Made by a program: the position numbers and the translations under genes. The notes below the pieces were generated by a model that saw only the letters and a program-made list of their open reading frames with translations, was not told where the DNA came from and made no database searches. From Clytia hemisphaerica (taxonomy: Eukaryota > Cnidaria > Hydrozoa > Leptothecata > Clytiidae), in the NCBI GenBank assembly GCA_902728285.1, contig CACVBU010001147.1, positions 659,466 to 723,465 on the forward strand: a stretch of DNA of 64,000 nucleotides, given 5' to 3'. Of the stretch, positions 8,208 to 56,400 are shown piece by piece (position 1 is the stretch's first letter; each line of letters opens with the position of its first letter).

Positions 8208-8223
8208 AAATATCGGAAGTAAT

Positions 8224-33447: not shown

Positions 33448-33955
33448 ATGAAGCGTTTCAGGAACGCAGTAGAGCGAACGCACGATGCTATCGAAGCGGA
33501 GAAACGTGAAATGTTGAGCAGTGATACGGATAGTGACGGGGAAGGGACCGTTGTCCGAAGACGTAAAGGTGGCCGACGTAATCAAGCCAATCGGAACAGT
33601 CATTTCTTAGAGGATACTTTTGGGAGTGATGAAGTACACATATGGTTAGACCTGTTTATCAATTTCCCTTCCCTGCAAAATGTATCCGGCTTACATATCA
33701 AGTTGGAGCAGGCTGATGGAGAATGGATGGCTCGCTTCTTGGAACAACACGGACTTGAAGCTGTCCTAAACATGCTGTATTCTCTTTCCTACCTTCGATT
33801 CAATCGAGCTGACAACAAAGAGAAAATCGATTTAGATGATGCGATCATTATGTTGGCTAGTATCAATTGTTTGAGAGCTGTCATGAGGAACAATAAAGGG
33901 TTGCAGTATTTTTGCGATGGATGCGACCCCGACGTCACAAAAAATGTTCTCCTCA
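33448..33955 (+). CDS. Formin alternative first exon V1 (GBD/DID module)
   Basis: Starts MKRFRNAVERTHDAI. A basic stretch (RRRKGGRRNQ) precedes an armadillo-like GTPase-binding/inhibitory segment with LHIKLEQADGEWMARFLEQH and NCLRAVMRNNKGLQYF, the region that opens INF2 and other diaphanous-type formins. It is 508 nt (3n+1) and ends at donor GTAAGT with one base left over. That base joins the common exon at 53432 to give Thr-Leu-Asp-Thr-Gly-Asn. It is the most diverged of the six copies. A full product would be about 1,318 aa. Confidence 0.82.
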
Positions 33956-36900
33956 GTAAGTCTTCACTTTCTTTTTCCTTCTTTGTCTTTTTTGTTTGTA
34001 GTTTAGTGTCCCAGAGAATCTCGGCCGGTACAAATCTGGGCAAAAATAGAGTTTGAAACCACCTTAAACAACTCTTCCTGCCTACCCCTTCGTTACCGAT
34101 ACTTGGCTGGCCTCAAGTTCGTTAAGATTTAACTTTGGTGAGTTTTCTTTTCTTTCATTTTCATATTATGTTGTACCTACTTAACTGTCTACTGTTGAGC
34201 ATTCTCTATGAGAACGCACAGTTCAACCAAGGATGTGAGCACAAAGTTTGCTTTCCTTTGTGAGGAGAGGTCGTGGGAAAAATTTGAACGTTTTGCGTAA
34301 TCAAGCGTGGGAAAATTGATCACAATTCGAATGTTTTTGTATCATGAAATGTTGCTGAGCGTGGGAAAACTATTACAATTCGAACGTTTTCTTGATTCGA
34401 ACGTTCGAAATGGTGATTGTTCGAATGTTTTGGATAGGTTTGAAGATTCGAATTTCAAAAAAACTGTGATTTTCAAAACATCAAATGTTTTGTTTACATT
34501 TTTCTGGAAAGCGCTTTGTTAGATTTCAAATCTTCTTATTTTTGTGATTGAAGATGGACTGATTTTAGCGATGAATGATCTGAGAATTTGTTTGGTATTC
34601 TACCAATGAAGTATAAGCCCAAAGGGCTAGAAGATTGTTAGTAAAATTTTCCGCTGGATTTCAAAAGTATACCACTCGAAAACTAAAGACAAAAAAAAAT
34701 TCAATCCGGCGTCAAAAATACGGCGTATGTTCTAAGGCTTCACTTTTTCTTGTCGAGAAAGGTTAAAGATTCGCTTCTAGCCCTTCAGGCTTATACTGTA
34801 CTTTATTGGATTCTACTCTTGACTTTAAATCCTTCATTAATTCTAATAAGGACCTATGTGGGATTCTTTATAATTACGTAGTGAAACATTAGGCTCTCTC
34901 TCACCCATGGCTCTGAGCGTAAAAATCTTTCTTTTTGCACGCAAACACGATTAGATTACTGTATAACGTTTTGTTTTTGTATTGTTCAGCCAGGCGTTGA
35001 AGAATGTACATTTCTAAAATGGACTTCCCGCTTTTTGTGAGCTTTTGTTTGTTTCTTTGAATTGTTTTATGAATGGAAATTTGAATTTTAACTTTATTTT
35101 GTAGCGTCGTAGCTGCACGTGTGAGTTGAAGTGAAGTTTTAAGTCGTTTTAAGATTTTTGTTTTGAAGAATATCTTGGTCATATTTTCATTCGTTTTGTT
35201 TTGTTTTTCACGAGAACGTTCAAGAACACTTTTGGACAGACTATACATGGACCATATTGCATGAAGCAACTCTACCAAAAACTCTTGGTTGTATCGATTT
35301 TCTTTATATTTTTTCATAACATTCTTTGCCCTCTTATTCCGACTTATATAAATTTCTTTTGAATGAGAAGTTTGGAAATATCCTTGTCAATTTCGTAATT
35401 TTTTGATGTTCTGAGGAAATATACGAATGGAAATTATTTGTCATCTGACCAAAAATGTGCCAAATATACAAAATTGATACACACATAAATTTCGTCCATC
35501 ATTCAGGAATTCAGGGCCCTGATTATTTTCTTTAAGGTCAAATTTTTAGCCTTACTGGGGGATAATTGGCAATTTACAGTTAAAGTTAATAAATGGCATT
35601 CTTTGTTCCCAAATTTTATGATGCTGTTATTCTTAGCATATTCTTAATCTTTTGGCCAATTTTATTATGAGTATTCTTACAAATTATATTCTTATAAAAG
35701 AGCGCGTCTCCCGAAGGAAGGGACATGAAGTTTAGAAACCTAGTAACAAATTGTGCAACCATTTAGAAGTTTATTGTGCTTATATTTAACAATATTTTGA
35801 CTTCGATATCTAACTGAGAGGTATTTTGGTTTTAAGATCATTTCAGTGGTTTTTTCTTGATACCAGGTGTTTTTTGCTCCAAATAATCTTTGGTAGTTGG
35901 CTGCAGCGTGTGCCACATAAAACACATCACGTAAATAGTAATTCACCACCGCACCGTAAATCGGGACGGGTTTCATGGTTGGCGGAGGAGCGGAATCGGC
36001 CCTTTTTTGAACGGAGTGGCGGAATTCGACGAAATTTTAGACCGAATTTCTGAAATTGGGTTCTCTGACGGAGACGGAAAATTGGACAGTTTTAGTGCGG
36101 AAGAACGAAATTTAGAAAAAAGTTTTGCGGAATTTTGGAATTGGTATAACAATTCCAAAATTGGCAGAGTTTTTGACAAAAATCTTGAATTTCAAAGGAA
36201 TTGTCGGTGGCGGAATTTTGGTCCTTTTTGACACGATTTGACGGAAATTGGAGAAAAAATTGACGTAATTGCGGAATCGGTGCCCCCTTAACCCCCACCC
36301 CTCCCTCAAAATCACAATTTCTTTTCGATATATAAAGAGGGAAATTCTAAAAAGATTTGTTCTTTAGGGGATTTCTACATAAGGATAATTTTTTATCAAA
36401 ATTAATTTCTGGGAATATTTCGACATTTTGGATTGGTTGAGAGCTTTCTTAAAGATTACTTGGATTATTTGAGGTTTGAAAAGTTTGTGGCATCTTTGAC
36501 ATTTTACAGGCACTTTTGATTTGTTAGGGTATTTTTTGAAAAAATTATTTTCTCCAAGTGATTAGCAATTCGCCCGCAACGGCAGGGCCCACTATCAAGT
36601 TGTATTACATATTCAGTCGAAAGTCGTAAAATCAAAATGAATGTTTCATTCTAAAATATTTCAAACAGAAGATCTTTATGACTATGTCTCCCCTCAGATT
36701 TGTTCTAATATCAGAAATTCTCTTTGTGAAAAACATTTCATTTCTTCTTCATTTTTGTTTGTATGTATTTCAAAGGAATTGAAAAATAATATGATGACAT
36801 GAAGTTTAAATATTGAAATGAAATTTTCGCGCAGAAAGAACACATTGCATGCAAATTTATAAATCGTGTTTGCAAGAGTAGGATTTTGCACTGCTCATTT

Positions 36901-37918
36901 AGACGTATTTATTTAAAGATAGGAATAAATTTTTAAGTAATTTTTCCTTTCAGGACTCTTTTTTATCCTTATCGCCGAATGAAATGATATTGAATAATAA
37001 ATCAATGAAAGTGTATGTTTAATTGATAACATTTTTGATCTTGCGGTAGATTTAATAGTACCGCTGTGAGCTACTTTCTGATGTTTGTAATCATTTGGAC
37101 AAAAAAACGTATTAATTTCATAAGTTATACCTATAAACCAGACTCGAGGAAAGAAGAAAGGAACTCAGTTATTCTGACTACATTGCAAGACGATTTGTTC
37201 TGTTAATCCATCGTTAAGCTTCACTTGCAAAAGAAATTTTTCTAACGTCTATTTATCGAATCATCCGTTTTGTGTTCAAGTCAAAATCACTTTTTGGGAC
37301 ACTTCCGTTTGACTAGCTGCTGCTGTTGGCTTGGAGACCTGCTTTTGTTGATAGCTTTATAAATCTTGAGATTAATTCCCTTGGGAATTATCTAACTATT
37401 TGAAACGCCAATTAATGATTATGAATTAAATGCTGCTCTATTAACGACATACAGTAATTGCTTTACTCGTTAAATCAGATTGTTGGGAAAATAGCATTTT
37501 TCTCGTAATATAGCATTGGAGTAAACAATATAAGTGAACTGTTCAGAAGATTTCTCACTCATTGTTGAATTTGATAAATTTTTGATGAACTTTTCTTCTT
37601 GGTTGACAGCTATAATAAGCGTTTTACGCGAAGAACTGTGATAGCAAACGGAGTAAATAAAAGACTATACTTTGATGAAGAAAAGTTGAAAGAAATCAAG
37701 ACATTGGGATCCATTAACTAAAAACTAGAAAAGCGAGGAGGAAGAAACATCCCTTATTTTAATAATTTATCTTCGTAAATAAAAGTCTCCAGAAGTGATA
37801 GCTGGGACAATATTCTCACTTTTTCGTACACGACATTAAACAGTAAAAGGGAGTCCAGAAGATTGATTTCATTTGGGACGAGTTTATTGTTGATCACGGA
37901 AGGTAGAGGGAAGCAGAT
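33956..37918. other. Spacer between formin exons V1 and V2
   Basis: No exon found. It contains a TTCTTAxxATTCTT-type repeat piece at about 35530-35710 and a block at 35975-36300 where GCGGAATT, GAAATT and GGAATCGG recur many times. A 138-codon minus-strand ORF at 35317-34901 is Lys/Asn-rich and probably chance. The V2 promoter should lie near the right edge. Confidence 0.5.
35975..36300. repeat. GGAATT-rich interspersed repeat
   Basis: Recurrent GGCGGAATT/GCGGAATCGG words, beginning GGCGGAGGAGCGGAATCGGC and closing GCGGAATCGGTGCCCCC. Both strands read open for about 70 codons because the words lack stops. There is no protein similarity I recognise. Confidence 0.55.
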
Positions 37919-39146
37919 ATGAAAAGCTGTTTACCATGCTCCAGTTTCCGACGAAACAAGAAAAACAAAAGACAAACAATCACCGAGCGTAAGACAAGCG
38001 GTGAAAAATCAGCCGCGCGTGCAACATCTGATGAAGAGAGCATTGAACTTTTGACCTCATCGCATGATGGAGTCACCGATGAACGATCACCGCGAAAAGA
38101 GGAATTTCAATTCAACAATAAATCTTTATTGACTGAAAAAGATCCGCTTCTGCATGATGAAGATGCGCTCAACGATTCAAATGGCTTTGTTATATTACCA
38201 TTGGATACCACTCAACTAACTATACTTTCAGATGGAAGCCCGGAGAAGGATACATCAATATCGAATGGGATTATATCTCATAAAGAAATTGACAGCAAGC
38301 CACCTTCCGATGAGAAAGTTTTCGAAGAGAAATCTTTTATCGATTTTGGATGTCAATACGATCAAAAGAGTCAAGAAATCAATAATAATGACGTCATTAT
38401 CAAAGAATCTAAGGACAAAAATTTGACTTCACAAGACTTTGAATGCCAGGTGAACTTTGAGGCTCCTATGAAAGTTGTTGAACAACAGATTTCGCTCGTC
38501 GAAGAGAAAACTAAGGCAGAATCGCCAGTGCAATTGGAGAGTCGAAAGCCAAAGAACTTTGATGAGAAAGATTCCATTGAAGTCACTGAAAAAGAGGACT
38601 TGGATTATGAGGATAAAGCTAAGACTCTTGTGAGTAATATACAGCTACAATCCAACGAAAAAAATTCAGAGAAAACTGAAAATAAGAAAATCAACCAGAT
38701 CTCACTATCGTCCTCGGAGAGTGACAGCCCGCCTATAGTATCGCCCACCGAAAAAAAGAAATTTGCCCTTATGAATCTCGTGAAAAGAGTCTCTCCGACC
38801 ACCAAGTTCCGCCCTGAAAGTGTGGTCAGTGAAGACGGAGAGCTTCTCAATGCTGCAGCCGTTCGAAAGTTGCTGAAAAATCCTACCGTAAGATCATACA
38901 CAGCTTTCATGATTTGTTTGAAGAAAGGTTCTTCCAAATTCATCGAACAAATTTTACAAGAATGTGACGCTCTACAGTTGATGTTTGATGCATTGGCCGC
39001 ACTGAGTTTGAAACATATCGGATCTTTTACTGATACTATTCTACAATTGGAAATTGTTCGCGCTGTCAAAATGATTTTGAATAATCCTATTGGTATTGTT
39101 TATTTGATCGAAGAAGATCGTGGATTTGTCTCAGACCTTGCTTTCG
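37919..39146 (+). CDS. Formin alternative first exon V2 (long N-terminal extension plus GBD/DID module)
   Basis: 1,228 nt (3n+1). Residues 1-20 are basic with two cysteines (MKSCLPCSSFRRNKKNKR), a possible membrane-binding or acylated start. Residues 20-300 are acidic, Ser/Lys/Glu-rich and predicted disordered. From residue 303 the formin regulatory module follows: DGELLNAAAVRKLL, SYTAFMICLKKGSSKFIEQI, GSFTDTILQLEIVRAVKMIL and GIVYLIEEDRGF. It ends TTCG/GTAAGT, joining the common exon as Ala-Leu-Asp-Thr-Gly. The product would be about 1,558 aa. The last 322 nt are nearly identical to V3 and V4. Confidence 0.85.
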
Positions 39147-39743
39147 GTAAGTTTTGAATTGTTTTTTTACTGATTTCCAGATTCCGTCTCTTATTAAATA
39201 TTTTCATTCATAGAGCGTTGCTATGATTTCGCACTGTTCATTGTCTGATATCTCTCATTTTGTGATAAAATTTTCATTATTCAATGCCGACCTCCTATCG
39301 AGATTATTACTTAACGTCTAAAGAAAAGTTTTAACGGGTGAAAAGTCATAAGAATAGGACAACTTAATCAAAATTTCACAACACGTTTCTCGTTGAATTA
39401 CAAATTTTGTAATGTTTTTATGAACCTCAAAAAATAATTTTCAAAGGCCTGTAAAATATTTCAACAGTTTTTGCGGGGCCTTTTTACGCGAGGCCTACTT
39501 AACAACTTTCATAGTGTTCACTACTTCCAGAAATTCATCCAGTCGTAGGAAAAGTATTAACGTCAGTCCTCACTTTCTCGTGTCTAGAGATGTGTTAATG
39601 AAATCTAAAAGTATTTCGATTTTCAATCATCAAAGATTATCCCATTAATCTTCCAACATGTTTAAAAATTTTGTTTAATCCATTTGCACATGATGTTTGA
39701 TTACCTTCACCTTCTCCTTGATCAGGTTGAAGTACTTTGAAAG

Positions 39744-39965
39744 TGTTCCCGTTTCATATCAGACACATATTTCATATAAGGACAGTGTCTTCCTATTGTT
39801 ATATTATGCTTATATAAGCAAAAAAATGTTTTTTCCTCTTTCTGACCGATCTTGCTCCACATTTGTGTCAATTTGATATAAAGAAGCTTGTCAATCAAAA
39901 TTGATGAGTAAGCAAACGATTCGCTCTTATTTAAAAACTAAACCTTTAACATTGATATGTTCATT
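39744..39965 (+). repeat. Dispersed repeat, copy 2
   Basis: Matches 1168-1385 in the same orientation, with a roughly 20-bp insertion near TGTTATATTATGCTTATATA relative to copy 1. Confidence 0.75.
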
Positions 39966-40134
39966 TCATCTCCGTTAGCTCTTTAAGTCGCCTTTTCATT
40001 AGAAACCTCTCTAGACTGGTTTACTGAAAAAGGAAGACATTCATGATCTCATAGTTTGATCGCTTTCTAAATTTACCTGTCCCCTTTATTTGGTCTATTG
40101 AATACCTTCTATTATACAGGAGACCCCCAGCGGT

Positions 40135-40330
40135 AGCTCTGATCACGATATCACGCAATTTTTTGTCTTCAATCACGATCACGAAAATCAGCAAAAAAAT
40201 TGGATAATCACGTATCCCTTTGAAAAAGTACAAATCACATAACACGGCTCAGAAATCTTTCAAATCACGATCACCTTTTGACCTCTGATCACGCAATCAC
40301 GAAAAATTTTTTTTCCAAATCACATAATAA
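40135..40330. repeat. ATCACG-rich low-complexity repeat
   Basis: AATCACG/ATCACGATCACG words occur about a dozen times, separated by short AT-rich spacers. There is no dyad or coding potential. Confidence 0.65.
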
Positions 40331-41198
40331 GGTGGCTTTGAATGATACTAGGTTAAAGGTCCAGCTTCTATAGCAATATCTGACAGTAGCTAGTTCTCAT
40401 CTTTAACACTAAGTGGTATCAGTAATAACCAGGATACCATATTAAAGGTAACAAATTATTCGTTTAAATGATTCATGATGGCCCCACCAACGTAAATTGG
40501 ACAGTGTAAGCAAGCTTTATTTTCAAAAAGGGATGCATAATTTCTTCTCAGTTAAATAACTCATACCCTGTCTTGTATCGATAAGAATGAATTCAAAATA
40601 ACATAACATCGTTATGAAACAATAACCCAATTCTTTTTGCCATTTTTTGATGAGTTTTACAGCAGAGTTCTTTTGCAAGGCGCTGTTCACTTTTTGATTT
40701 CACGTTGAGATTATAGAAAGGAGTATAGTGATTTAAATGTTTTTGTTTTTCAAGCCAGCCAGGCACTTGATCATGTTCTTACGTAGTTGTGACATGCATT
40801 CATAGCAAACTGAAACCCTTTTTTGGAGTTTACTGTTTAAATTAACATACTTGGTCGATAATTTTTTGCTACGTATTGCTTTATATCTTTTCATATTGAG
40901 AGCGTTGAAGAAGAAGAAGATAACTTGTTGAGAAATTATTAAACGTACAGTTTAGCAATACAAACATTTGAAGTTGTATTAGTTGAAATCTTTGTGCTTT
41001 GGATTTATCACTGTTTATAATCTTATAATTTGAACTTTGTATACACTGTGACATTCTTGTTGATATTTGTATCGAAAATTTGTGGTATATTTTGAATGCA
41101 AAACTTGCGATTGAAACTGTTGATAGAAAGCTGTTGATTTATTTTGTTGGCAAGAAGGAAGGGCGAATAAATCGGACTGGTTGACTTGAGAATCCAAA

Positions 41199-42129
41199 AT
41201 GAAGAATATTTTCACTTTCTTAAGACGAAAAACTACGAAGAAACGAAATAAAAAGAAGCATGAAAGTCGACAAAACTCTGTCTTTGACAACATCGACGGA
41301 GAATCAGGCGTCATTTCGGAGTTGGTCGTCGATGAGACTGAAAATCATGTTGTTGAAGAAGAAAAAAATGAAGAGGAGCTACCAAAAAATGAGTTTGTCG
41401 AAACAGTGGGAAAGAAGGACGAAACAAGTGTGAATGACAGTGCTACCGTTGACAGTCCGATCATTTTAACACCAGATGATGTTTGTCTGCTGGATGATGA
41501 CTATAGTGAAGTCGAGGTGAAAAGCTCTGAAGAATATCACGAAATCTCTTCAGACACTAACAACGAAGCAAAGGAAAAAAGATTGAGTTCAATTGAAGTT
41601 TCCAATCTTTGGAAATCAGCTGGTCGACGATCAATGGTGGAATGTTCCACCGATGAAGAATCTGCTGATAGTGGAAGTTCTGCTGTGGTCCAACAGAAAA
41701 TGAAGAGTCCTTTACTGAAGACTAATTTGTGGAAAGTTGCCAGTCTTCATTCGCTGAACTCCTCCAACTGCTCCGATGATGAGAGTAAGAATAAGTCTAA
41801 GATTATCGTCAGTGATGATGGAGAGCTTCTCAATGCTGCAGCCGTTCGAAAGTTACTGAAAAATCCTACCGTAAGATCATACACAGCTTTCATGATTTGT
41901 TTGAAGAGAGGTTCTTCCAAATTTATCGAACAAATTTTACAAGAATGTGACGCTCTACAGTTGATGTTTGATGCATTGGCTGCACTTAGTTTGAAACATA
42001 TCGGATCTTTTACTGATACTATTCTACAATTGGAAATTGTTCGCGCTGTCAAAATGATTTTGAATAATCCTATTGGTATTGTTTATTTGATCGAAGAAGA
42101 TCGTGGATTTGTCTCAGACCTCGCTTTCG
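41199..42129 (+). CDS. Formin alternative first exon V3
   Basis: 931 nt (3n+1). It begins MKNIFTFLRRKTTKKRNKKK, a basic N-terminus close to that of V4 but without cysteines. An acidic disordered stretch follows to about residue 203. It then carries the same GBD/DID module as V2, with only about 8 nucleotide differences over 322 nt by my count. The donor TTCG/GTAAGT leaves one G. The product with the common body would be about 1,459 aa. The frame runs on past the donor for about 110 nt, which I regard as intron. Confidence 0.85.
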
Positions 42130-44085
42130 GTAAGTTTTACTTTCACTTTTGTGTTTGTTTAATGTTTACTCGCGCAAATCTTCGTTTTCGTAAAACATCT
42201 TTCTCAAAACAAACCAAACAGCTAGTAAAATATACATAGTAAACTTTCAAAAACTTCTCATTATAGTAGGTCATTGTACATTTCAAAAGACACTCAAAGA
42301 AGAATTTGAAACATCTTTAATGTTTCTTTTTCATCCGGAGTTGTATATATATATTTTGGTTTTTGATGATTTATTGCATTAGCCTTCAGTTTTTCTGTTT
42401 TGTAACCAAGGAGGGGTTCCTGTTGTTGACCTCCATTTATTTGTCAGACAAATTGCCACTTAATGAATGATACAAGTTGCTGTCTTTCGTGTATCTGACT
42501 TCTACATTCAATGGAAAGTATTGCTTGTGAAAGGAGTGTCTGTTTAGTCTATAGAAAATATATGATGCTTTTCTGATCATTTTTAATTTCTGGTTTTAAT
42601 TTTGTTATAATATTTGGCTTTTGTGGCTTGAGAGCTGCTTCACAGGAATGAGTAAGGGTTTTCAGTATGAATATAATTTTTGATGAGTATATTATTTAGA
42701 CAAACTTTTACACATAATCATACTCTTCAAAAAGACGATCATACAAACTAAAAATGGTGATAAGTAGCCAGGCTAGGTGAAATAAGGGGTTCTGTCAAGA
42801 GGCTGTTGAGGAATTAGTTAATGATACCCTTGCTACTAAAGTTCTTTCTTACCTTTTTTTCGTATGGTGACAAGGGTCTGTTGCAAGACGGTGATGAAAG
42901 TGTATTTACTTTGACACTTATCTTGTTGTTGTTGATAAAAGACTTAGATCATTAATACTTTACTTTGAAGGTCATTTATACTACTTTACTGTTTGGACGA
43001 GGATTTAGAGCGTAAGAATGTTGGATGCTACTCAATTTCTCGATTAGGCTACACTGTGATCTAATAGCTTTATTTGTTACTCTAACTGCAGGCCTTCCGG
43101 AAAATAACGGGATACCTTTTATATATTAAAATCAAAACTAAAAGCTTGAGAATTTACTAACTTTTTCTCTAGTGAAATCGAAATATTCCTCCTTGGATGC
43201 ATAGACTTTGGAAAGTGGCTCGTTTTATATTCATTTGACTCGTTTGCGATGCTTTCAGTTGATTACATAGCTCTACACACAAAATGATAGCTTTGTCAAT
43301 AATCAGAGATGTTGATTATACCTGCCGTTCCAGTCAGAAACAGGATTTTCTATATCCTTTTCATTCATAGCACGAAAATTGAGCAAGGTTGCGTTCTAGA
43401 TCAAAGCATTCCAAGCAATCTTAAGCATATGTTTTCTTTGTCAAAAGACAAAACAAGTCTTTGTTGTGTTGCATGTTATCAAGCCCTCATGTTGAGTTAC
43501 AAGGTCAGGGTATTTGTCAATGTCAAAATAACAAAATTAGCAATAGTTCAAGTACAATTCATGCTGTAATTGAAACAAAAGGATACAGTCATTATTTTGT
43601 CATTTTCAACAAAATGAATTAATAACGATCTTCCAGATAACTACTTTTTAAGAGCTATTAATAAGATTAGATAGATAAGGCCTGTCTCACATGTCAACTT
43701 TTATTTGTTTTATAGTTTAACACACAGTACTCCTTGTCACTCCCCTATTTTATGAGTATCTTTGCGTGTATTTTGACGTTGTTTGTTTTGCGACCTGTAT
43801 TACTAAGCATGTTGAAAGTTCTTGAAACTGTATCTCTAAACTCTAACATTTCATTTTCTGTTGACATGTAGTGTAGAAGGGGCTTCTCTCGTTTTGATGT
43901 TTCGTTAGATTGAAAAACCTGTATTATCGTTAATATCGATTTCTGTCTTGTTTGCATTAAGGAAAAAAGCAATTGTTTGCAGAAAAATATTGGCATTGCT
44001 ATGGAATACTGCCTCTGAAATAAACAGATCGAGATTTTATCATACAGTTCAATAAAGAGGCGGACGAAATTGGAACGGTGAAAAA
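42130..44085. other. Spacer between formin exons V3 and V4
   Basis: No exon or clear mobile element recognised. AT-rich. The ATG-proximal 40 bp of V3 and V4 look related (AATAAA...CGGAC words), as expected if the exons arose by duplication. Confidence 0.45.
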
Positions 44086-45268
44086 ATGAAGAACATCTTC
44101 TTGTCCTGTACAAGTTCGAACAAGAGAAAGAAAAGGAAAAATAAGAAGAAGAACAAAAATGAGAGGCCTGGTTCAGGGGTGTATGAGTATGCTCCTATCG
44201 AACCCCTTTCGTTCAAGTTCGATAAAGAGACTCAGTTCGAGATCCAATTCTTGGATGTGGCATGCCAAAGTTTGTTGACATCATTGAATGATTTCGAATG
44301 TCAATTTGGTGGAAATGAGGATGAGGAGATATCACTTTCTGGAAATGATGAGGTGAAGCAGGAGATTGACTTGGTTGATTCAAAACATACCAAAGAAAGT
44401 AATGAACATTCTTTGGAAAATGTTGAGGAGCGAATTGTTCATAAATTCAGGGAAGTAGAGACACAGACGAGTGTGGATTTGGGATATTTGAGTCATTGCA
44501 CAGATGACAGTAATGATGAAACCACTACTGATGAAGAAATCAAACCTGAGGATCCCCCTTTATCAAATGGACATGTAGATCCCAAACATATACTTAATGA
44601 GAATGCAGAAAACGATAAAACAGAATTACTCAATGGGAATGCAGATTCTACGAGCTCAAGTATCGGAGATTCGTCTCTAAGAAACGGACATGAACCTTCA
44701 TTAAACGGAGATAGCCCTCTTACGAATGGAGTTGAACCTTTGCTTAACGGACACGAGCCTCTGGCTAACGGACACGTAAATGGGGAAATAAAAGACGATA
44801 TTTTTGAGAGTTCGAACGGTGAGCAAAAGATACAAAACAATCCAATTATAAAGAAAGTCTCGACAGCCAGAGCGAAAGCCAGTCTTTGGAAAGCTATTCG
44901 CAGGGTTTCGTCAAATGGCTCCAAAGAGCTTAAGACTGAAGAAATGGTCAGTGAAGATGGAGAGCTTCTCAATGCTGCTGCAATTCGGAAATTATTGAGT
45001 AATCCTACAGTCAAATCATACACAGCTTTTATAATTTGTTTAAAGAAAGGTTCTTCCAAATTTATCGAACAAATTTTACAAGAATGCGACGCTCTACAGT
45101 TGATGTTTGATGCATTGGCTGCACTGAGTTTGAAACATATCGGATCTTTTACTGATACTATTTTACAATTGGAAATTGTTCGCGCTGTCAAAATGATTTT
45201 GAATAATCCTATTGGTATTGTTTATTTGATCGAAGAAGATCGTGGATTTGTCTCAGACCTCGCTTTCG
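44086..45268 (+). CDS. Formin alternative first exon V4
   Basis: 1,183 nt (3n+1). It begins MKNIFLSCTSSNKRKKRKNK: a basic patch with one cysteine near the start. The disordered extension (to about residue 287) contains a TQT motif at residues 126-128 (EVETQTSVD) and a run of short repeats built on L-x-NGHEP/NGH (about residues 165-245). The last 322 nt encode the same module as V2 and V3. Its first 115 nt differ more than the rest. The donor is TTCG/GTAAGT. The product would be about 1,543 aa. Confidence 0.85.
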
Positions 45269-48200
45269 GTAAGTAAGCTTTTACAAATGTCACATACTGG
45301 TTAATAATGTTATTTCCCTGGTTGAGTTTGGTGAGAACGAAATTCATTTTTAAATGCACTTCTAGCGACCTTCAATTTTCAATTTCATCAATTTTCAGCT
45401 GGTTGCGTCATAAATTGAAAGTTTTTTTCAAATTGACTCTTTCTTCAACACCAATCAATGAGTTTTTCCGCTATATAAAGTCAACTTTCACTTTGAAATA
45501 TCAAAGCTCCTTGTTGATGTATTCTTCATTTTGACTCTGTTTCGCAGTCTTACTTTGCTATTTTAAGGTTGTTTTGTCGTCAGCTATTTTATGAATAGGT
45601 CTCCAGTCTCGTGTCTTCAAATGCGATTAAAAATTTTGTTTACATTCGACTTGACCTACTCTCTTGCAACTTGACTTCAACTGGTGCAATATTTTTACTT
45701 TATTTACTCATGACAGTATTAATTTTCAATGTTTGACCCAAAACATGATATTCGATTGACAAAAATGCTATCAAATTTTTGATTTACAAATTAATTTTCC
45801 AATAAAAAGTTCAATTTAAATACATATGTTTTAGTCGATACTCAAATTACTGTTCATGTAAGAATTTGATAAGATTCAAATACAGTTGTGTTTTAACAGC
45901 GCTGCTCAATCTCTAACAAAATTGTCAATCATTCAAAACTTCGATGATTTTGCTCAATTGTCTTCTGAAAATAGTCAAAGTAATAAAAAATACTAAATGA
46001 ATCGAGCGCCATTTTAAATGACCATGTACAGTAGCCAGATTCAAATTTTGATTGATGTCAGTATTAAGTATTCAAAGTTTCCAAATCATCCAAAACAGAT
46101 GTACAAAAAGTACAATCATGGTCCGGAAACTCTGGAAAGTGTCTTTCTGTCTTTCACGAAAAGATTGTCAGTTTCATCAAAACACTTGAAAATATAAGTA
46201 AAAAATCATGTCTAATTTTTGCATAAAATGTCAGTATAAATTGTACTTGGTCTGACTGATACGCTTCACTTCGTCCTGTACTTTTATACATCTAAAACCA
46301 ACTTTTGATGTAGAAGCTTTGAAGCTTAAAATTAGGTTGTTTAACTTTTGCCCTGGATTTTTGAATGAAACGCTTAATTTTGAAATATGTGGACTAATTA
46401 ATAGTTTGCCATTGATCTCACGGTTTTGTTCTGATTTTTTATGAGTTATATGGTTTTGTGTTCGTGAAATCAGTTTTGGTGCGTCTAATTTAGGTTTTTC
46501 TGTTCGTATCCATTTTGCTGGATTTGAATTTTATGGATCATGAATAAATACTCAGTCTGAGAGTGTTTCAATTTGCAAACACCTTGTATAAGGAACCAAG
46601 GATATGGGTTTTCAATCATCACAGTGTTTCTTTTAATTGTGTTAATTCGAAGTCTTAAATCTTGACAATTGACACTATCTCAACCCAAGCCACTCTCAAT
46701 TTTTCGATCCAAAATTTCTGTGTTATGGAAAATTTTTCAAAACTATTTGACTAGTTCGAGTCAGTGTATGGAAAAAAATTTCGAGTTTGTTCTACATTAT
46801 TGTCATTTTCAGTTCAGAAAAATCGTAAAGTTGCCTTAAATGTATCTTTGCCTGGATCAGATTGAATTAAAGACTTTGCTGAATTCAATTACGTTCTGAA
46901 AACACTAAAAAGGAAGGGGTTTAGTTGGAAAATTTTACTCAAGAATTGGGAAAGGGAGGGGGATGTAGATTGAAGGAGGGAACACTACCTACTTCTTCTG
47001 GTCAAAAATGGATCCTTTTCTGTATTTATTACAGTACAGTGTGTCCCAAAAAAGCGGACCATTTTTTTCTAAAATAAAAAGTATAAGTATAAAGTAAAAT
47101 TCTCAAAACTTAATCTAAATTGGGCAGAATAATTAAAATAAGTCTTTTGACACAATACACGTTTTTTAAGAACACCCAAAAATTCTTAACTTTTTTGAAT
47201 TTTAATTTAAAAATATTTTTAACATGTTCTAGTTATCACCATTTTTTGAGTACTTTTGTCAATTTCCTAAAGAATCGGGTGTTTTTGAGTCCGCAAAACC
47301 TTAAAATTTTCTTAACTTTTTCTTAATATTTTTTCATCAAAGCCTGCTTTTTTTTCTTATATAGTTTGTTCTTATATAAAAAAGGCGTTTATAATCAAAC
47401 TTTGCATCAGAACGGTCAGGTATGGTTGCTCGTGTACTGCGAAAACGCTTTATTCGGAAAAAATGGAACGCTCTCGTTCGACAAAGTCAAGTCTCGGTCC
47501 AAACAGTCAGGACAGTCAAATATTTCCTATATAATTGTTTACTTCCCAGTCGCAATGCTATCATTATACATACTCGATGTAACAATTTATTGTTTTTATG
47601 GCTAGTCATATTTCAAGATTGAGGAAAACGAATTATTGACAAAATACATCTTATAAATAAGCAGGAAAATAAGCACATTCAGTGACGAAACGATCAATTT
47701 GGTCAAGTGTGGTTTTAACGTTCTTACATGATCAATTTCTCGCTTTCTTCGAATTTTACTTCAACACTGTCTGCATGAAATATTTTGAAGCTTTATTTAG
47801 TCGATTTTTCTTTCCCTCGTTGACCGCATATATCAAAAGTCAAAATCCTTAAGAGCCTTATGCTTGTGTTTGTCTGGAATTTCTGTCTACTACAGCCTAA
47901 GGAATATTAGTGAAACACCTTCCTTTTGAAAGCTACACATCAAGATAAGACACGAAAAACTCTGTGACAAGGATATTTCCGAACTTCTCATGTACTTTTT
48001 CGATTTTCCTCTATCTGAATTTTCTTCTCTTTTGTTACTTACGGAAACGAAATTAAGCTCGTTACCTTATCTTGTTATTAATTGGATACTTCGTAACCGG
48101 TGTAATGAACATACTTGGATCACAAAGACAATCTTGTGGTATTACAATTTACTTGTTTTCGTTTGGTTTTGATTCTCAGTAAGAGTACATACTAGTTGGT

Positions 48201-50166
48201 TTATTGGTTGTTTTAACTGAATGTTTGCACTAAAAACAGTTAAAATATTCATTTTGCTGGTATTTTGTAGTCGGAAGTCATCAACTCGTACAAGGACATG
48301 AAAATTGCTAATCGGATAGCGTAATTGAATTGGAAATTACTTTTGAAGTTCACCTTTCGTGCTTTATGGGCATCTTTATCGAAGCATCTTGTCATAATCC
48401 TTTTCGTCTCTTGTTTCATTATCCTTTGTGATGAAAAGATGTCCCATCCAGATATCTCTTCTTGAATCAGCTTAAATGTTCAGATTAGAATACTTATCTC
48501 AAACACATCAAGAATTTTCGTTGTCGAGTTTGAACGCGTGGTATAATTAATATCTTGGGCTACTTTTAGTTGCTCCCCACTGTGGGCACAAGACCAGTGT
48601 CTAGATTGATTTTTCCGCTGTTTTCAACACTGAGTTCTGTGATACTTTCGTACCAATTTATGTAGTTAAGGTCCATAATTAAGCAGCATAGTTAGTGGTT
48701 TGTAACCATGTTCATTTTTCCATGTTTTAATATGCTTAATTACATCGTCTGTTAATTGTCTTCTTCGTATTTCGTCACTATTGTGATAAAGATATTCTTA
48801 ATTGCTTATGACGTTTGTCTCAGTAGAAGTGGGTCAGTTTACCAGCCAATGTCATTTTGATCAGTTTTGTCATGGGAAGCTGGATTCTTTGTATCGCACG
48901 TGTGTATCTTAATTCTTGAGATTATTGCTCTTCCTCCTCCTTCTCGTTTACTTAGAATTGACTCTCAAAATCTTGATAACATTTCTATGGATAGATAGAT
49001 CTCATGATTTTTGTTGACAAAATATGACAAAATATTTTTCTGAGAGTACAATTGATACAAATTGTGGTAAATGGAGGGAGGTTATTTTCTGGTTGTGGTT
49101 AACGTGGAATTGGATTGGATTATGATTCTGTGTAGATTTTCATAAGCTTGTTGGCTTGTTGGATTCGAATGACATCAATGCTGATGTGGCTGCACATACC
49201 TTGTTTATCAATTCTTTACCAGCCACCATATATTTTAACGGATAAAATTCAACTCAACTCCTACCATGTTCAGGGAACGACTAAGATTCGTTTTTATTCG
49301 TTGTGGCTCGTTTTAACCTGGTTAAATTTCTCTTTTCTTTTAATTGTCACCGAAACCTATAACACTGTTGTTTACCTAAAAGTAAAGCCACATATTGCAG
49401 CCGTCATTATGACGACTCCGATGATTTCGTCGACGAAAATGTGTGTTACAAACTTTGTACTTATTTTGTCATCTTTGTGGTCAGTGACCGTTCGGGGAGG
49501 AGGTATAGAAGCTTTTGTCTTCAAGTACAGTTTTTTGTGACACTGTTATCCTCACACCTACTGTGTCAAACCTTAAAAATCACATTTTTTGTCACTTTTA
49601 AAGCAATGATATTGTGTCGTCTAACATTATTTATCAGTCTTTCCACCGAATTTCAATTTTCCTGTTTTCTTTACTAACAGACTTCCTTGTCCTTCCTTCA
49701 AAAATTTGTTCTTTTGGCATCAGTTTATTTGTAAATGGTTGTTTATCTTAATGATTGTCCCGACTCTCGAATGACGGTACGTGATCGACATTTTCTGAAC
49801 GTTCTGTGGTCTGCTATCTAAACATTCTTTGCTCTTCATCTTTTCTACAAATAAAAGCATGGGCTTCCGATACACGGAAAGGCAGATCAACTCAATTGTC
49901 TCTCATACATCACATGAAAACTTGTGTAAATGTCGAATTGTTATTGTCATTGCTGTATAAAGGTTGACGGCTGTTTTGTTGAAATTCTGTTTTGGATAAT
50001 TTTCTTCTTGAATTTTTGTTGTAGTGGATGATTTTTAATGGCCTTAGTATAAATAGTTATCGTTATTAACAGAACTGCTTTTCTTAATTAGAGAAAACTA
50101 GATACATAATAAGCATAATTTTAAGATTCAAACTGATGGTTTATATTATTTGAGAAATTTGCTGAG
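45269..50166. other. Spacer between formin exons V4 and V5
   Basis: At 4.9 kb this is the longest gap in the array. I found no seventh module: no frame shows the conserved V/IV-I-L-N-x-x-x-G-I/L-x-Y-L signature. An AT-rich repeat piece of the TTAAGAAC family lies at about 47150-47395. Short ORFs near 49148-49677 have no recognisable features. Confidence 0.5.
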
Positions 50167-50551
50167 ATGAGGTTTAAAACGAACGGCTGGGCGCGTGTCA
50201 AGAACTTGACAGAACATTCACACGCAACAGTCAGCGATTTTGAAAATGCTGAACTCAACGATGCTTTTGTTCGTCGTATGTTATGCGACCCGAATTCTCA
50301 AACATACAGTGCTTTAAACCAATGGCTTAAAGTCTGCCCTCACGAATGGTTAAGAGAGTTTTTACAATGTGGCGGCTTGAAGTATATGTTTGCTGGGCTT
50401 ACCTACATGAATATGAAAGGTAGCTCCAAATTTACGGACACTGTAATTCAGATAGAGGTGGTTCGCGGAATTAAACTTGTCATTAATTGTGCTGATGGTA
50501 TCGAATATTTGATCACATCAAATGATGATTTGATTCATGTCATGGTTCTAT
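50167..50551 (+). CDS. Formin alternative first exon V5
   Basis: 385 nt (3n+1). A short start (MRFKTNGWARVKNLTEHSHA) leads directly into the GBD/DID module: LNDAFVRRMLCDPNSQTYSAL, EWLREFLQCGGLKYMFAGL, SKFTDTVIQIEVVRGIKLVI and GIEYLITSNDD. The lack of an extension makes it resemble the ordinary INF2 N-terminus. The donor CTAT/GTAAGT leaves one T, so the junction codes Ser-Leu-Asp-Thr-Gly. The product would be about 1,277 aa. Confidence 0.85.
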
Positions 50552-52778
50552 GTAAGTATTTGCCTCTTTTTGCTAGCTTTTTCAAATAAGATTTATTCAT
50601 AACTGACAATCCAGAATTCCTTTCAAAGACATATCCAGTAAGTTGCGAAATAAATGCCGATAAGGATCATCCAGGAATATCATACATTGACACATATTAT
50701 AGTATAATCCTCTGAATCAACCTTTTTAGGTATCATTTTACAATACTGACTCAATGCTTTAATCATACGTTTTCTGGATGATAACAATGCTACGTCACAA
50801 TTTACTTGGTGCTTTTCCTTTGTTATCAAATGAATCGTTAAGTGACTTTATCTTCCGCTGTAACAATCCTGAACTATTCACACGGGAAGGAATTCAAAAT
50901 ATCCACTAGACTGTATTCCTTTCTCCCTCATATTATGTGTGATGATCAAGGCTAATGATGTCAACATTCAAAATAGGTTTTTCTTTTCATAAAGATTAGT
51001 CTTATGAAAACACCAGTAACTGGGCAGACAAAACACATTAAAAATCCTTAATGAAAACCTTCTGACCTTCTGCTCTCACTGAAATTTTCATATTATGGAA
51101 ATGTTACTGGACTTCTTATGACTTGAAAACGTGGTTTTACTGACTGGCGTTATATATTTTTTCTGGATTGAACACGATTAACTTAGATTGATTATCAACC
51201 ATTAACGTTTATTCAGCTTCCTTATTGTCTATAAATTTGGTATCTCTGATAGATTCTGGACAATAGATAATTGTTTTGTTGGTTTAGACCTCGTTGTATT
51301 TCTCTTATCTTACATTTACCTCCAGAAAGAACTTAATGTTAATCGCATTTTTGCTCACCTTGTATCGACACCCATGATTACAGGTTTTTAAACAGGAGGA
51401 ACAGTCTTGAAATTTGACATAATTTAACTAATTAATTAGTACATTAATTTACAACCATGTTAATTAAACATTTCCGATAGTCGTGAATTTCAGTAATTTG
51501 ATTTCATATTTCACAAATCACTAGACCCCGCACTTCCTTAAGGTTATAGGGCTAGTATCAGTAGAATGCATCTTTTAGATCAAATGTTTCCCTAAAGATT
51601 TGGTGGATTCTTAACTTTCGATATAGTTCTGAAGCCCTCAATTTCCCATATCGTAGCCACTAAAAAGATCAAAGTCATATAATTTAACGAGCTTTCTGTT
51701 TGCAAAACAAATAGGTTGATTTATGTTAGAATCAAAATATTTTTATATAATTCGGAAGCCTTCTTGAAAAAATTACTGAATATCTTCATAAAATTGACAA
51801 AACTTGTAAAAAAGAATAATTTAATTGAGAAATCAAAAGTATTTCAGGAAATGTGAAATTTTTGTTGGCTATCAGACGCCAAAATTTGGCCGTTTTAGTT
51901 TTGATTTTTTCGATTGGCTGGATGACGGTGAAAGGAATTTCGAATGTTTATAATTGTTTGTTTATGTTCCCTATTTAATCTGCGTCATCCTAAAACATTC
52001 CCTAAAAATAAATTGTCAGCGAATTTTTCTGTCTTTGTATAAATTTGTTATAATTGAAGGGGAATATTTAATTTTATCGACAGTTCTCACCGAAAGAACA
52101 TTATTAAGATCTCAATGCATGACCTTTTTAAACTTTAGGTCATCGAGACATGTTTCTACTTGAAAAACACTCAACTCTCAAAATAAAGCCCTTAGTTGAC
52201 CAGACCGCGAAAGTTCGTTCAAGTGCGATTTTAAATCTGACACTTCAGAAATAATAAATACAACAATGGTAACTCGATACAAAAAAAAAAACATTTTCCT
52301 GTTTCTCATTTCCCAAGAAAAATAGCTCTACCAGTTTGGTATGAGCCTAAGATCTTCCAAAATTCTTAATCGTTTAAAATCTCTTCACACAATACTAAAG
52401 CAATCATACCATAAAACCCTATTAATTTTCATTTTTTCTAATGGGTATATCACGTAGCAGACTCATTTTAATGACTCCTGACACCTAAACACAAATCAAA
52501 TGCATCCAATTTACAACTGTAAAAAACTTTCATTGCTTTGCAGTAATGCATGCGATTAACGCCATGATAAAGAACATTTCAATCATAACTTTATTGGGGG
52601 ATTTTTGCTAACTCGCATGCAAAAGCTCAAAAGATTGATCGCTGATATATCTTGCTTTGTATAGATTTCGAATTCTGAAATTATTATACTGAAAAAATGT
52701 CCCTGAGTCGATTGATACTCTGTCATAAGAAGATAAATACATAACAAAGTAGTGATCGCATCAAAACTGGCGAACATC
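50552..52778. other. Spacer between formin exons V5 and V6
   Basis: AT-rich. No exon, RNA gene or transposon end recognised. Confidence 0.45.
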
Positions 52779-53169
52779 ATGAAAAATAAATGGGGAAAAG
52801 TATCACGGACTGTGGTTACTATTCGGACAGAGAAACCGTTAGTTTCGGACGATTTCGAACATTTGGTTAATGATGAGGAGAAAATACAATCTATTCTCAG
52901 TAAACAGTCGTCCGCTACTTACGCAGCGCTGAATACATATCTCACAAAATGTGATGGGTATTGGATGAAACAGTTCTTAGATTGTGATGCGCTGCATTTC
53001 ATGTTCAACCTCTTACACATTATGGGCCATAAAAGAGGGCCAACGCTACGGCTCCGTGATACAGTCTTGGAATTACAAATTGTGAATGTTATAAAATCTA
53101 TTTTGAACGATCGCACTGGTCTTGATTATTTGTTAGACGAAGAAAATCAAGTGGTTCAGCTTGCTCTTG
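52779..53169 (+). CDS. Formin alternative first exon V6 (proximal to common body)
   Basis: 391 nt (3n+1). It begins MKNKWGKVSRTVVTIRTEKP and runs straight into the module: SSATYAALNTYLTKCDGYWM, QFLDCDALHFMFNLLHIM, LRDTVLELQIVNVIKSILND and GLDYLLDEENQ. The donor CTTG/GTATTA is weaker than the GTAAGT of V1-V5. It lies only 262 bp from the first common exon. The N-terminus MxxKWGxV and the short leader make it the copy most like the conventional INF2 start. The product would be about 1,279 aa. Confidence 0.85.
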
Positions 53170-53431
53170 GTATTACTCTATCCTATACTCTGAAACTACC
53201 GTGCATGTAGACTTGAGTGATATCCAGAAGCATGTCTCTAGTTGTACTGGTCTATATTTCAATACGCGTATCATCAAAATCAGGCGAGGCTTAGAAGGAA
53301 AAAATCAAACGGTAAAATTTGGAATCTAGAGGAAAAAATGGAACTTGCATACGTATATTCCTGTGCTCTTTTGTGTCCTTTCTCTAGCATGAGAGACATA
53401 TGGATTCAATTTTCTTTTTTTCTTTTTGTAG

Positions 53432-56400
53432 CTTTGGACACGGGGAACGTTATGGTGAAGAAACAAGTGTTCGAAATGTTGTCCGGTGTCTGCTTGTACA
53501 GTGAACGTGGTTATCAACTCGCTCTCTCCGCACTCGAAAACTTCAAGGTAAGTGAACGAATATCATTTTGTTTTCATTTCAATTATAACCGTCTGCTAAT
53601 AGTGAGGTTAAATAAATCGGTGAAATCACGACGACGGACGAAAATGTAATAGGCTAGTGAGTTTCAACCAATCAAATTCCGTATTTCGACTAGCCTATTG
53701 CAATTTTTGTCCGCCGTCGTGATTATCCTGGTAAGCTTAACCTCAGTAATAATACCGTCTGTATTTGTAAAATATTTACTTAGCTGAAAATTTATCTTGG
53801 CTAAAGACTTATTTTTGCGACTACCTTTTTTGTTTTTTATTGCTTTTTCGGAGAGAGAACAAACAATGCGCGTTTTAAAGCTCTATTCCCAATCGATATT
53901 TTTATGACAGGCGATCGGAAAGGGTGTTTATGACCATAACAAAACAATATACGCAATTAATAATTATCAAAGGAATTTTCAAGTCGATGTTTTATTCCAT
54001 CGAAAGTCAGAAATCTTGTTTTTCTGATTGCGCTTTGCTGTTAGAAAAAATTTGTTTTGTTTTGATGCGAAAATCAAGACAAGTATGTGATGGTTTGTGA
54101 GAGATGTTTCTTGGAAATTTTGTCATCTTTTTATTTATCCTTATTACAACAACAGACAGAGAAAAGCCAACGATATCGATTCAGTATTATCCTCAATGAG
54201 TTGAAAAATGCAGAATTGTTCGCTTACAAGACCACTCTGTTGGCTTTTATCAATGCCATTCTGATGTCGACTGTCGACTTCAATGAGAGAAGACAAATCA
54301 GAAATGAATTTATCGGTAAGACCACTTTTTTGACCAACTGACCTTCTTAAATCTTACTGAGGATGTGAAAATTAGTTTGCTGGATCTGGAAATTTTCCGC
54401 TGAGATGTCCACCCCTCTGTAACTGAATGGTCAGTTATAAATATACTGTACCTCGTTTTATAAAAACGTCCAAACTTTTTTTATAAAAATAAAGTCTAAA
54501 AATATTTTTGAAATATTCTTAATCTCGAAAAATTTTGAGAATATATTTTCTATGACGGTGTATTCTTCATATAAATTGTCTATAGCTTAGGATTTACAAA
54601 TTTCTAGCTACACCCTCTCTTATAAGAACATGTAAATTTTTTATTTTTGGCATTTTCAGCCTAAAACTATTCTAACCATGTTCTTATTTATAAGGAAAAA
54701 TTGAGATATTTTAGGTTTAATACTCCATCCTTATAAATTCAACCTAGTTACTTAAAAGTCAGGCTTCATAAAGTCACCATTGTTCTTTGTTTTTATTTTT
54801 GTTATTGTTCTTATAAAAAAAACGATTTAAATGTTTACCCTCTGAAGCCTCCATCTGCTTACTTTCTAAAAATTTCAGTCATATTGCCAAAAATTCGTTT
54901 CAAACAAATTGATAATTCACCATTTTGAAACATTTAGAACGCCATGCAAATGTTTGATGAAGATAATACTATTTCGATTACCAAGTTTATTTCGCTTTTT
55001 TCATAGGCGTTGCTAGAAAAATCTCTCCTTATAATTATATTTTTATCTTTGAAATTTTGAATTTGCGATGGTGAAAATTGTCAAATGTCCTTACTCGGCT
55101 AGTGAAATTTTTACGCTTTGTGTTGTGACATATCTAAAAAACGCGGGCTCGCCAATCTTGCATGGTCATTTTCCAATAGATTTTTATCTTCGAAATTTTG
55201 AAAATACGAAAAAAATGAGGGTAGATTTTCCTTTATAGCTTTTTTTGGATTATAAGCAAAAAAACATCTGCCTTCAGATCATCTTATGGAGTTCATCGTC
55301 TCTCTCTTTCTAATCCTCACAGCTCGTTATTTTTGCCTTTTTGACTGGAATATAAGACAGATCTGTAAGCTTCTTTTGTTTCATCCTAGAAAAGAAGGAA
55401 AAATCGATAGAAATATCAGCTAGTCATTTATATTTCTTGGAGAGGGGTAATTTTAATTTAGGGAAGGGAAGAAAAAAGATATTTAACGGTTTGTTATTAT
55501 CCCCCTCTGTTTAATCACGACAATTCCGTCTTATTAGTCATAACTTTTGATTGTAAATGCTTCTTATGTTGTTTTTCAGGACTTGGCTTGTTGGACGAAC
55601 TCACTGCTCTCAGGTAAAGCAAATTCTTGTCTTACTCAACCTATTACCCTTATATCGCTTCTAAGTATCAGTTGTTTCAAGACCAATATCCGCGGACATC
55701 GATCAACAAAGTTTGATTTGTATCTACAGAAATAAACTTTATTCAAACGAACACCGTTAGTGGGCACTGATGAGTATATTTCGTCTGCTTCTGTTTCTAA
55801 GTAATTCTGTCTATTTGTTTCGCTTTGTGTTTTACATGGTGCTCAGCCTTTTAAACTCTTTCTACACAGACACGAGAACGATGAAGACTTCTTGACACAG
55901 ATCGTGGTGTTCGACGAACAGAAACAGCAAGATGATGATATGATGATCACTGGTGATGGCTTGGACCTCAATGATCACCAACAAGTCTTCAGGGCTGTCT
56001 TTGATCAGGTGAGATGAGAAATAATGTTCATAGCGGGTAGTGCAACACTAAGAGTTTACTATAATTTGTTAATTCTATACTCATAATATCTTCGTTTCGC
56101 GTGCACAGAACCAGCGGTGGGCTTTTATTATTCATGAGGAGTAGGGTCAATTCCCCAATAGGGAGGGCTCATATAAACATCCTATTCAGAATTAAGATTT
56201 CTACTATGCACCAAGCTCTAGCTTATGTTTTAACTATAAATGTCTGACCATCTATCTAAATTTATGTCCTTTCTTGAGAAAATCGTCTTTAACGAAAATC
56301 CTATTGAACTTTTTCTTTTTTTCTCAGATTGCCAACAAGCCAATCGCCAACAATTTTCTTCGTATATTACAAAGTTTGTTGATGATCGACGTTGAAAGTG

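Follow-up and report, generated by a model that had tools for sequence, protein, structure and literature searches.

An INF2-subtype formin gene of Clytia hemisphaerica is preceded by six tandem first coding exons, V1 to V6, in the window analyzed here, that is, the whole 64,000-nt stretch of DNA. We assign a probability of about 0.82 to the reading as a whole, namely, that this formin has six alternative first coding exons, each of which would be spliced to a common exon at 53432, and that the choice among them would swap the regulatory input of the protein. This variable-first-exon layout, proposed in the first-pass annotation, has strong support in the sequence, in the conservation of V1 and V2 limits, and in the single-copy common exons. 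The six exons are as follows.

33448..33955, + strand: V1 first exon, 169 aa from ATG to donor; most divergent DID half; relatives on other contigs
37919..39146, + strand: V2 first exon, 409 aa; Cys/basic tip, long acidic linker, DID half
41199..42129, + strand: V3 first exon, 310 aa; basic tip, acidic linker, two LWK motifs, DID half
44086..45268, + strand: V4 first exon, 394 aa; basic tip, acidic linker, LWKAIRRV motif, DID half
50167..50551, + strand: V5 first exon, short, 128 aa; starts NGWARVKNL; DID half
52779..53169, + strand: V6 first exon, short, 130 aa; starts KWGKVSRTV (W-4-8 calmodulin pattern); DID half; weak donor GTATTA

Each exon opens with its own ATG (33448, 37919, 41199, 44086, 50167, and 52779), with an in-frame stop codon starting 12 to 54 nt upstream in all six cases, and a GT directly follows each of the six donors (33955, 39146, 42129, 45268, 50551, and 53169). 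All V exons end in phase 1, with one spare base that fits the exon at 53432; together with the CT found there, this base encodes T, A, A, A, S, or A, which is followed by an 11-residue segment of the common part. It had been claimed that the six exons each have their own ATG, are 3n+1 nt long and free of stops, and that the exon at 53432 needs exactly one base before continuing this segment; both claims were borne out for all six, and the spliced models of V1 to V6 are open to a single stop at 60895-60897, with lengths of 1277 to 1558 aa. V1 to V6 form a tandem row of homologous first coding exons, all lying before a single constant exon set of matching phase. V6 adjoins the second exon most closely, across a 262-nt intron. 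Between V4 and V5, positions 47183-47382 hold a dispersed repeat with at least 42 other matching places (77 to 83%), and upstream of the formin lie USP38-like ubiquitin hydrolase exons (8095-12633, + strand) and a CUB-domain exon (17516-17971, - strand).

The twelve exons that follow the array, from 53432 to 60897, complete the formin gene.

53432..53547, + strand: common exon 2; 11-residue segment; residue equivalent to INF2 A149
54156..54315, + strand: common exon 3; DID
55580..55613, + strand: common exon 4; DID
55870..56008, + strand: common exon 5; DID/dimerisation region
56328..57314, + strand: common exon 6; FH1 proline tract, FH2 start by eye
57417..57667, + strand: common exon 7; FH2
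57851..57951, + strand: common exon 8; FH2 by position
58202..58380, + strand: common exon 9; FH2
58584..58775, + strand: common exon 10; FH2 by position
59134..59298, + strand: common exon 11; FH2 end by position
59528..59834, + strand: common exon 12; WH2/DAD-like segment of 18 residues, motif by eye
60080..60897, + strand: common exon 13; low-complexity tail and stop; no CAAX box at its end

The predicted product is an INF2-type formin, as the first-pass annotation had it. Among the best 120 of 2515 matches of the spliced protein (7976 candidates scored), all informative names are INF2-like, the remainder being hypothetical, uncharacterized, or unnamed. In the PDB, the V6 form matched INF2 at 5e-68 versus 7.7e-22 for mDia1; PF02181 (FH2) matches at the formin locus. 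In an FH2 tree of 16 rows, which is confined to INF2 without other formin subtypes and keeps 15 of 18 relatives (3 were lost to the motif cut), the Clytia row joins Rhopilema INF2 at 99/99, inside cnidarian INF2, a position that fits a medusozoan. The order DID, FH1, and FH2, followed by a putative WH2/DAD-like segment, matches that of human INF2; the last of these, an LKK-type candidate of 18 residues in exon 12, was read by eye. A CAAX box was sought downstream of the Clytia formin and not found. From 63843 onward, the window contains a possible alternative last INF2 exon, in which an acceptor precedes VGWFAKFFSPQPYEKNEVE, read in the phase of donor 59834 and closed by a stop; if real, it would add a C-terminal choice to the N-terminal one. 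Two introns contain inverted repeats: that after common exon 10 a nested, MITE-like one (58871-59014; 37-nt arms 95% and 30-nt arms 97% complementary; at least 39 other places at 90 to 98%), and that after common exon 2 another with 49-nt arms, 73% complementary (53597-53751).

Each V exon encodes an N-terminal extension and the first armadillo repeats of the DID, without the rest of that domain; the V1 model spans about residues 131-237 of mDia1, i.e., the N-terminal part of the DID. The same kind of GBD/DID segment had been ascribed to every V exon, of which the N-terminal DID half stands, but the GBD is partly a label: in the five N-terminal models compared with Pfam (V1, V2, V3, V5, and V6, each joined to the common part), Drf_FH3 was above cut-off in all five, whereas Drf_GBD, also found in all five, was above it in V1, V5, and V6 and below it in V2 and V3. 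Likewise, the six different regulatory N-termini of the annotation hold as six tips but come down to four DID-half types, the DID part of V2, V3, and V4 being nearly identical.

In all six V exons, the in-frame codon score is above that of the exon's own other two frames and exceeds the best of 2000 random 600-nt intron windows, by a smaller margin in V5 and V6. Donors were ranked with a matrix built on the 11 common-exon donors and compared with 3245 GTs of the + strand. The donors of V2 to V5 fall at percentiles 98.7 to 99.1 and that of V1 at 91.9; that of V6 (TTG|GTATTA) is the weakest of the six, at 65.4, and V6 use may be conditional. A first-exon HMM, built including the six themselves, matched them at E < 1e-26, with the next frame at 0.077, and no seventh V-like exon was seen with it in the 64-kb window. 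In the 600 nt before the ATGs, all 15 V pairs stay within shuffles, so that no shared promoter sequence is seen there, a result that neither shows nor excludes promoters.

Acceptor-like sites were scored with a matrix from only 12 acceptors, whose threshold misses 1 of these 12. By this weak test, none of the six V exons has such a site between the in-frame stop and the ATG, in keeping with the earlier remark that V starts lack an obvious acceptor; inside V2 to V6, sites are present at a loose threshold, one passed by 11% of all AGs. A tandem set of homologous exons that all have one phase is the usual picture in Dscam-like arrays, in which the V exons would be internal, mutually exclusive exons behind a common upstream exon. 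Against this, every ATG has an in-frame stop 12 to 54 nt ahead of it, and the relatives of V1 and V2 share their starting Met; we consider the reading very unlikely and rejected internal exons on the lack of an acceptor-like site from stop to ATG. Another alternative, a common or spliced-leader 5' UTR exon further upstream, would leave the proteins unchanged. The alternative-first-exon reading would have each transcript start at or upstream of one V exon, and the chosen phase-1 donor would splice past all later V exons, whose starts show no acceptor, to 53432. It is from the exon anatomy that we infer both V splicing to 53432 and promoter use.

A new finding is that V1 and V2 have relatives on other contigs that keep the exon limits, at the Met as well as at the donor. 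An alignment search of the protein database gave nine matches among 7996 candidates scored. Four are INF2 of other animals (two birds, one fly, and one fragment beside octocoral in the tree); the others are the V1 relatives P0181 and P0182 (77%) and P0183 (57%), the V2 relative P0179 (head 202/301, DID part 101/106), and P0180, which matches the FH1 exon (83%). All four V1/V2 relatives have the same starting Met and, at the donor, S-K or G-K, as a base plus GTAAG would give. P0179 and P0181 to P0183 are single-exon ORFs running past the donor, which support exon limits and not splicing, and this form is what the V exons would have if they were short stand-alone proteins, made by intron read-through or intronic 3' ends, or separate genes. 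We give that idea only a slight chance: the V1 relatives keep the exon end and have no clear similarity beyond it, as judged by eye, a single V exon is only part of an armadillo domain, and the DID part coded at 53432-54315 is present in one copy in the genome, among the best candidates scored. Genome-wide protein searches of the 417-Mb assembly (queries V1, V4 plus common, V5, and V6 plus common; E up to 1; best candidates scored) placed the V exons, like common exons 2 and 3, at this locus only, the sole other match among the best candidates scored being on contig C208, at E = 0.5. A retrocopy that would prove splicing was absent from the genome matches listed, as was a spliced fragment of the Clytia gene from the 7996 protein-database candidates sharing most words that were scored.

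Three of the V exons share a seemingly homogenised block at their 3' ends.

38810..39146, + strand: homogenised block of V2, start approximate
41791..42129, + strand: homogenised block of V3, start approximate
44930..45268, + strand: homogenised block of V4, start approximate

The last 335 to 339 nt of V2, V3, and V4 are 91 to 96% identical, with 3 of 42, 7 of 39, and 6 of 39 fourfold sites differing among the pairs and, over the last 315 nt, a dN/dS of 0.08 to 0.15. Identity 5' of the block drops to about chance. The upstream coding parts align within 200 shuffles, 0.5 to 1.7 standard deviations above their mean, and local alignments of the 600-nt introns lie within 100 shuffles; of the first 30 intron bases after the donor, 11 are identical in V2/V4, 12 in V3/V4, and 18 in V2/V3. 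At the protein level, the heads are 26 to 30% identical among paralogues versus 67% for V2 and its relative, and the DID parts 94 to 98% among paralogues and 93 to 95% to the V2 relative. Over the first 30 residues, tip similarity was matched by 3 of 2000 shuffles for V3/V4, 16 of 2000 for V2/V4, and 655 of 2000 for V2/V3, and over whole heads none of the three pairs reaches the best score among 200 shuffles; tip homology among V2 to V4 is only partly supported.

A new feature is that the last ~335 nt of V2 to V4 look converted, while 5' coding parts, flanks, and introns are largely unrelated. Conversion that stops where homology stops explains the likeness of the DID parts best, because the block is alike and the flanks are largely unrelated; this contrast is the stronger point, since the paralogue-versus-relative difference in DID protein identity is small, and the argument draws on the Clytia nucleotide sequence alone. 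A rival is strong selection on the codons themselves. Given three 300-nt blocks with 100, 96, and 92% identity to the first, an assembly artefact might also be suspected, from unmerged haplotypes or collapsed repeats, but we deem it extremely improbable: upstream coding parts are within 200 shuffles and downstream introns within 100, and V2 has its own relative, with a head 67% identical. Assembly duplication of V2 to V4 was rejected, as coding heads and introns differ.

That one or two V exons, e.g., V5/V6, serve the gene and the others are unused duplicates is unlikely in our view, if less far-fetched. The array is known from genome sequence alone, the V6 donor is weak, and V2 to V4 look like duplicates; however, all six V exons have open frames and coding-type scores, V1 and V2, although distant from the common exon, are conserved elsewhere from Met to donor, the low dN/dS among V2 to V4 holds for their last 315 nt, and their largely unrelated flanks imply that the duplication is not recent.

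If all six exons are used, V choice would replace the extension together with roughly two armadillo repeats at the start of the DID, and all forms would keep the remaining DID as well as FH1, FH2, and DAD. Each form would stay autoinhibited, because the DAD-binding core is largely common to all, and would be opened by a different signal or at a different site, while conversion would keep the V2-V4 DID part alike. We hypothesize that V choice changes the regulatory input; promoter choice may select the V exon and alter GTPase, membrane, or autoinhibition input.

According to passages of PMC9616786, W11, L14, and L18 of vertebrate INF2 bind calmodulin. The V6 extension has W-V-V at the spacing of this site and is the sole V extension with a complete W-4-8; those of V5 and V4 have the W and first hydrophobic only, that of V3 has two LWK motifs without W-4-8 spacing, that of V2 has no W, and in V1 a W-4-8 match occurs only inside the DID part. 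All seven cnidarian relatives listed have a W with a hydrophobic residue at +3, and two of them (Montipora and one Dendronephthya) the full spacing. V5 and V6 would give short INF2-like forms, with a W-bearing extension that resembles the vertebrate calmodulin site. V2 to V4 have 10 to 12 basic and 1 or 2 acidic residues among the first 30, and the whole extension including the linker has a net charge of -15 to -22; their basic tip (with cysteines in V2) and acidic linker of ~190 to 290 residues could set location. Long extensions are also found in mollusc proteins, e.g., of Patella vulgata and Mercenaria. The V1 form would have neither the W-bearing extension nor the basic tip and acidic linker. 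Since human INF2, according to section 5 of PMC11589041, has no counterpart of the G region found in other diaphanous formins, direct Rho-family input is less likely to be the variable, and a calmodulin-type extension more likely.

First-exon variation was also looked for in 174 INF2-like proteins listed, in 168 of which the junction was located (6 were dropped). Of the 7200 pairs whose common parts reach an identity of 70% or more, which come mostly from vertebrates and give counts that are not independent, 2253 reach 90% in the common part, and 3 of these fall below 91% in the first-exon part. One of the 3, P0109/P0112, rests on 23 residues and is uninformative. The others are Patella caerulea/P. 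vulgata (common part 97%, first-exon part 38%) and Montipora/Oculina (96% and 48%; the Oculina entry is marked LOW QUALITY at source); Mercenaria/Dreissena show 84% and 31%. In a tree of 24 first-exon rows, P. caerulea groups with Dreissena at 93/91, with P. vulgata among other lophotrochozoans, and in a wider tree at 89/96, both below the firm-support mark of 95/80; by their common parts, the two Patella group with each other (100/100), and so do Mercenaria and Dreissena (96/90). Forcing the Patella rows together costs 17.2 log units (AU p 0.0335), a post hoc figure from a tree already inspected and weaker than it looks. The first-exon tree still unites Montipora and Oculina (91/88), on branches that measure 0.39 and 0.80 there versus 0.015 and 0.024 in the common part, and the coral difference could also be fast change of one exon.

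The coral and limpet sequences are third-party gene predictions, compared as proteins without genome context; the models for these animals seem each to have caught a different first exon of one gene. As a new point, the use of alternative first exons in INF2 may therefore be of old origin and wide distribution. A tentative scenario, which we hold to be possible but rather less than even in its chances, is that such exons, by which the N-terminal DID half is swapped, are an ancient trait of animal INF2, from before the cnidarian-mollusc split, lost in vertebrates or cut down there to one exon, and grown protocadherin-like here, with DID parts converted, tips diverging, and promoter choice wiring several inputs. 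In Dendronephthya, the common DID parts of the INF2 proteins P0007 and P0112, both listed with contigs of equal length, are only 54% identical, and this octocoral probably has two INF2 genes near each other.

Clear parallels exist with other genes. Tandem homologous variable first exons before one constant set are known, in the part of PMC7811963 concerned, from clustered protocadherin alpha/gamma, and the homogenised V2 to V4 beside diverged V exons recall the alternate and C-type groups of protocadherins; the Clytia array differs in having six exons and not dozens, in a cytoplasmic actin regulator and not an adhesion protein. UGT1A and Gcnt2 likewise have tandem variable first exons on one constant set (PMC1885805). 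According to the abstract of PMC1885805, conversion matters in protocadherin clusters and does not predominate in UGT1A and Gcnt2, where diversity arises by birth and death, whereas in Clytia three exons look converted; in contrast to UGT1A and Gcnt2, it is a regulatory domain that the Clytia array swaps. Among formins, Drosophila DAAM reportedly has short and long forms with alternative N-termini. A mouse Fhod3 variant probably uses an alternative start, as given in part of PMC11930772. In FHOD3 and DAAM an end is dropped or added, whereas in Clytia homologous DID-half exons replace one another, and human INF2 varies C-terminally (CAAX/non-CAAX; section 5 of PMC11589041), in contrast to the six N-terminal exons of the Clytia formin. 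Among the open-licence PMC matches listed, titles and abstract openings describe no formin array of variable first exons, and the available text of PMC5047451, on animal formin subtypes, contains "splice" 0 times and "exon" 2 times. The variable-first-exon reading is well supported and the regulatory one plausible; what is new in Clytia is a variant of this known layout in a formin family for which we found none described.

Discussions of how formins are regulated usually speak of a single autoinhibitory domain per gene. Parts of PMC10368640, on ten families, link INF2 exon 2 variants to neuropathy with kidney disease and exon 3 and exon 4 variants to kidney disease alone; its abstract gives residues 57-184 as the dual-disease range, and published passages place the human INF2 exon junction somewhere between residues 108 and 157. 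The V exon corresponds in content to human INF2 exon 2, and natural V variants are therefore directly relevant to it. With signs of a similar choice in corals and limpets, the question can be put to species for which RNA data exist. If there are six input ends on one fixed actin-assembly half, the locus would be a natural swap experiment for calcium/calmodulin, CAP-actin, GTPases, and membranes.
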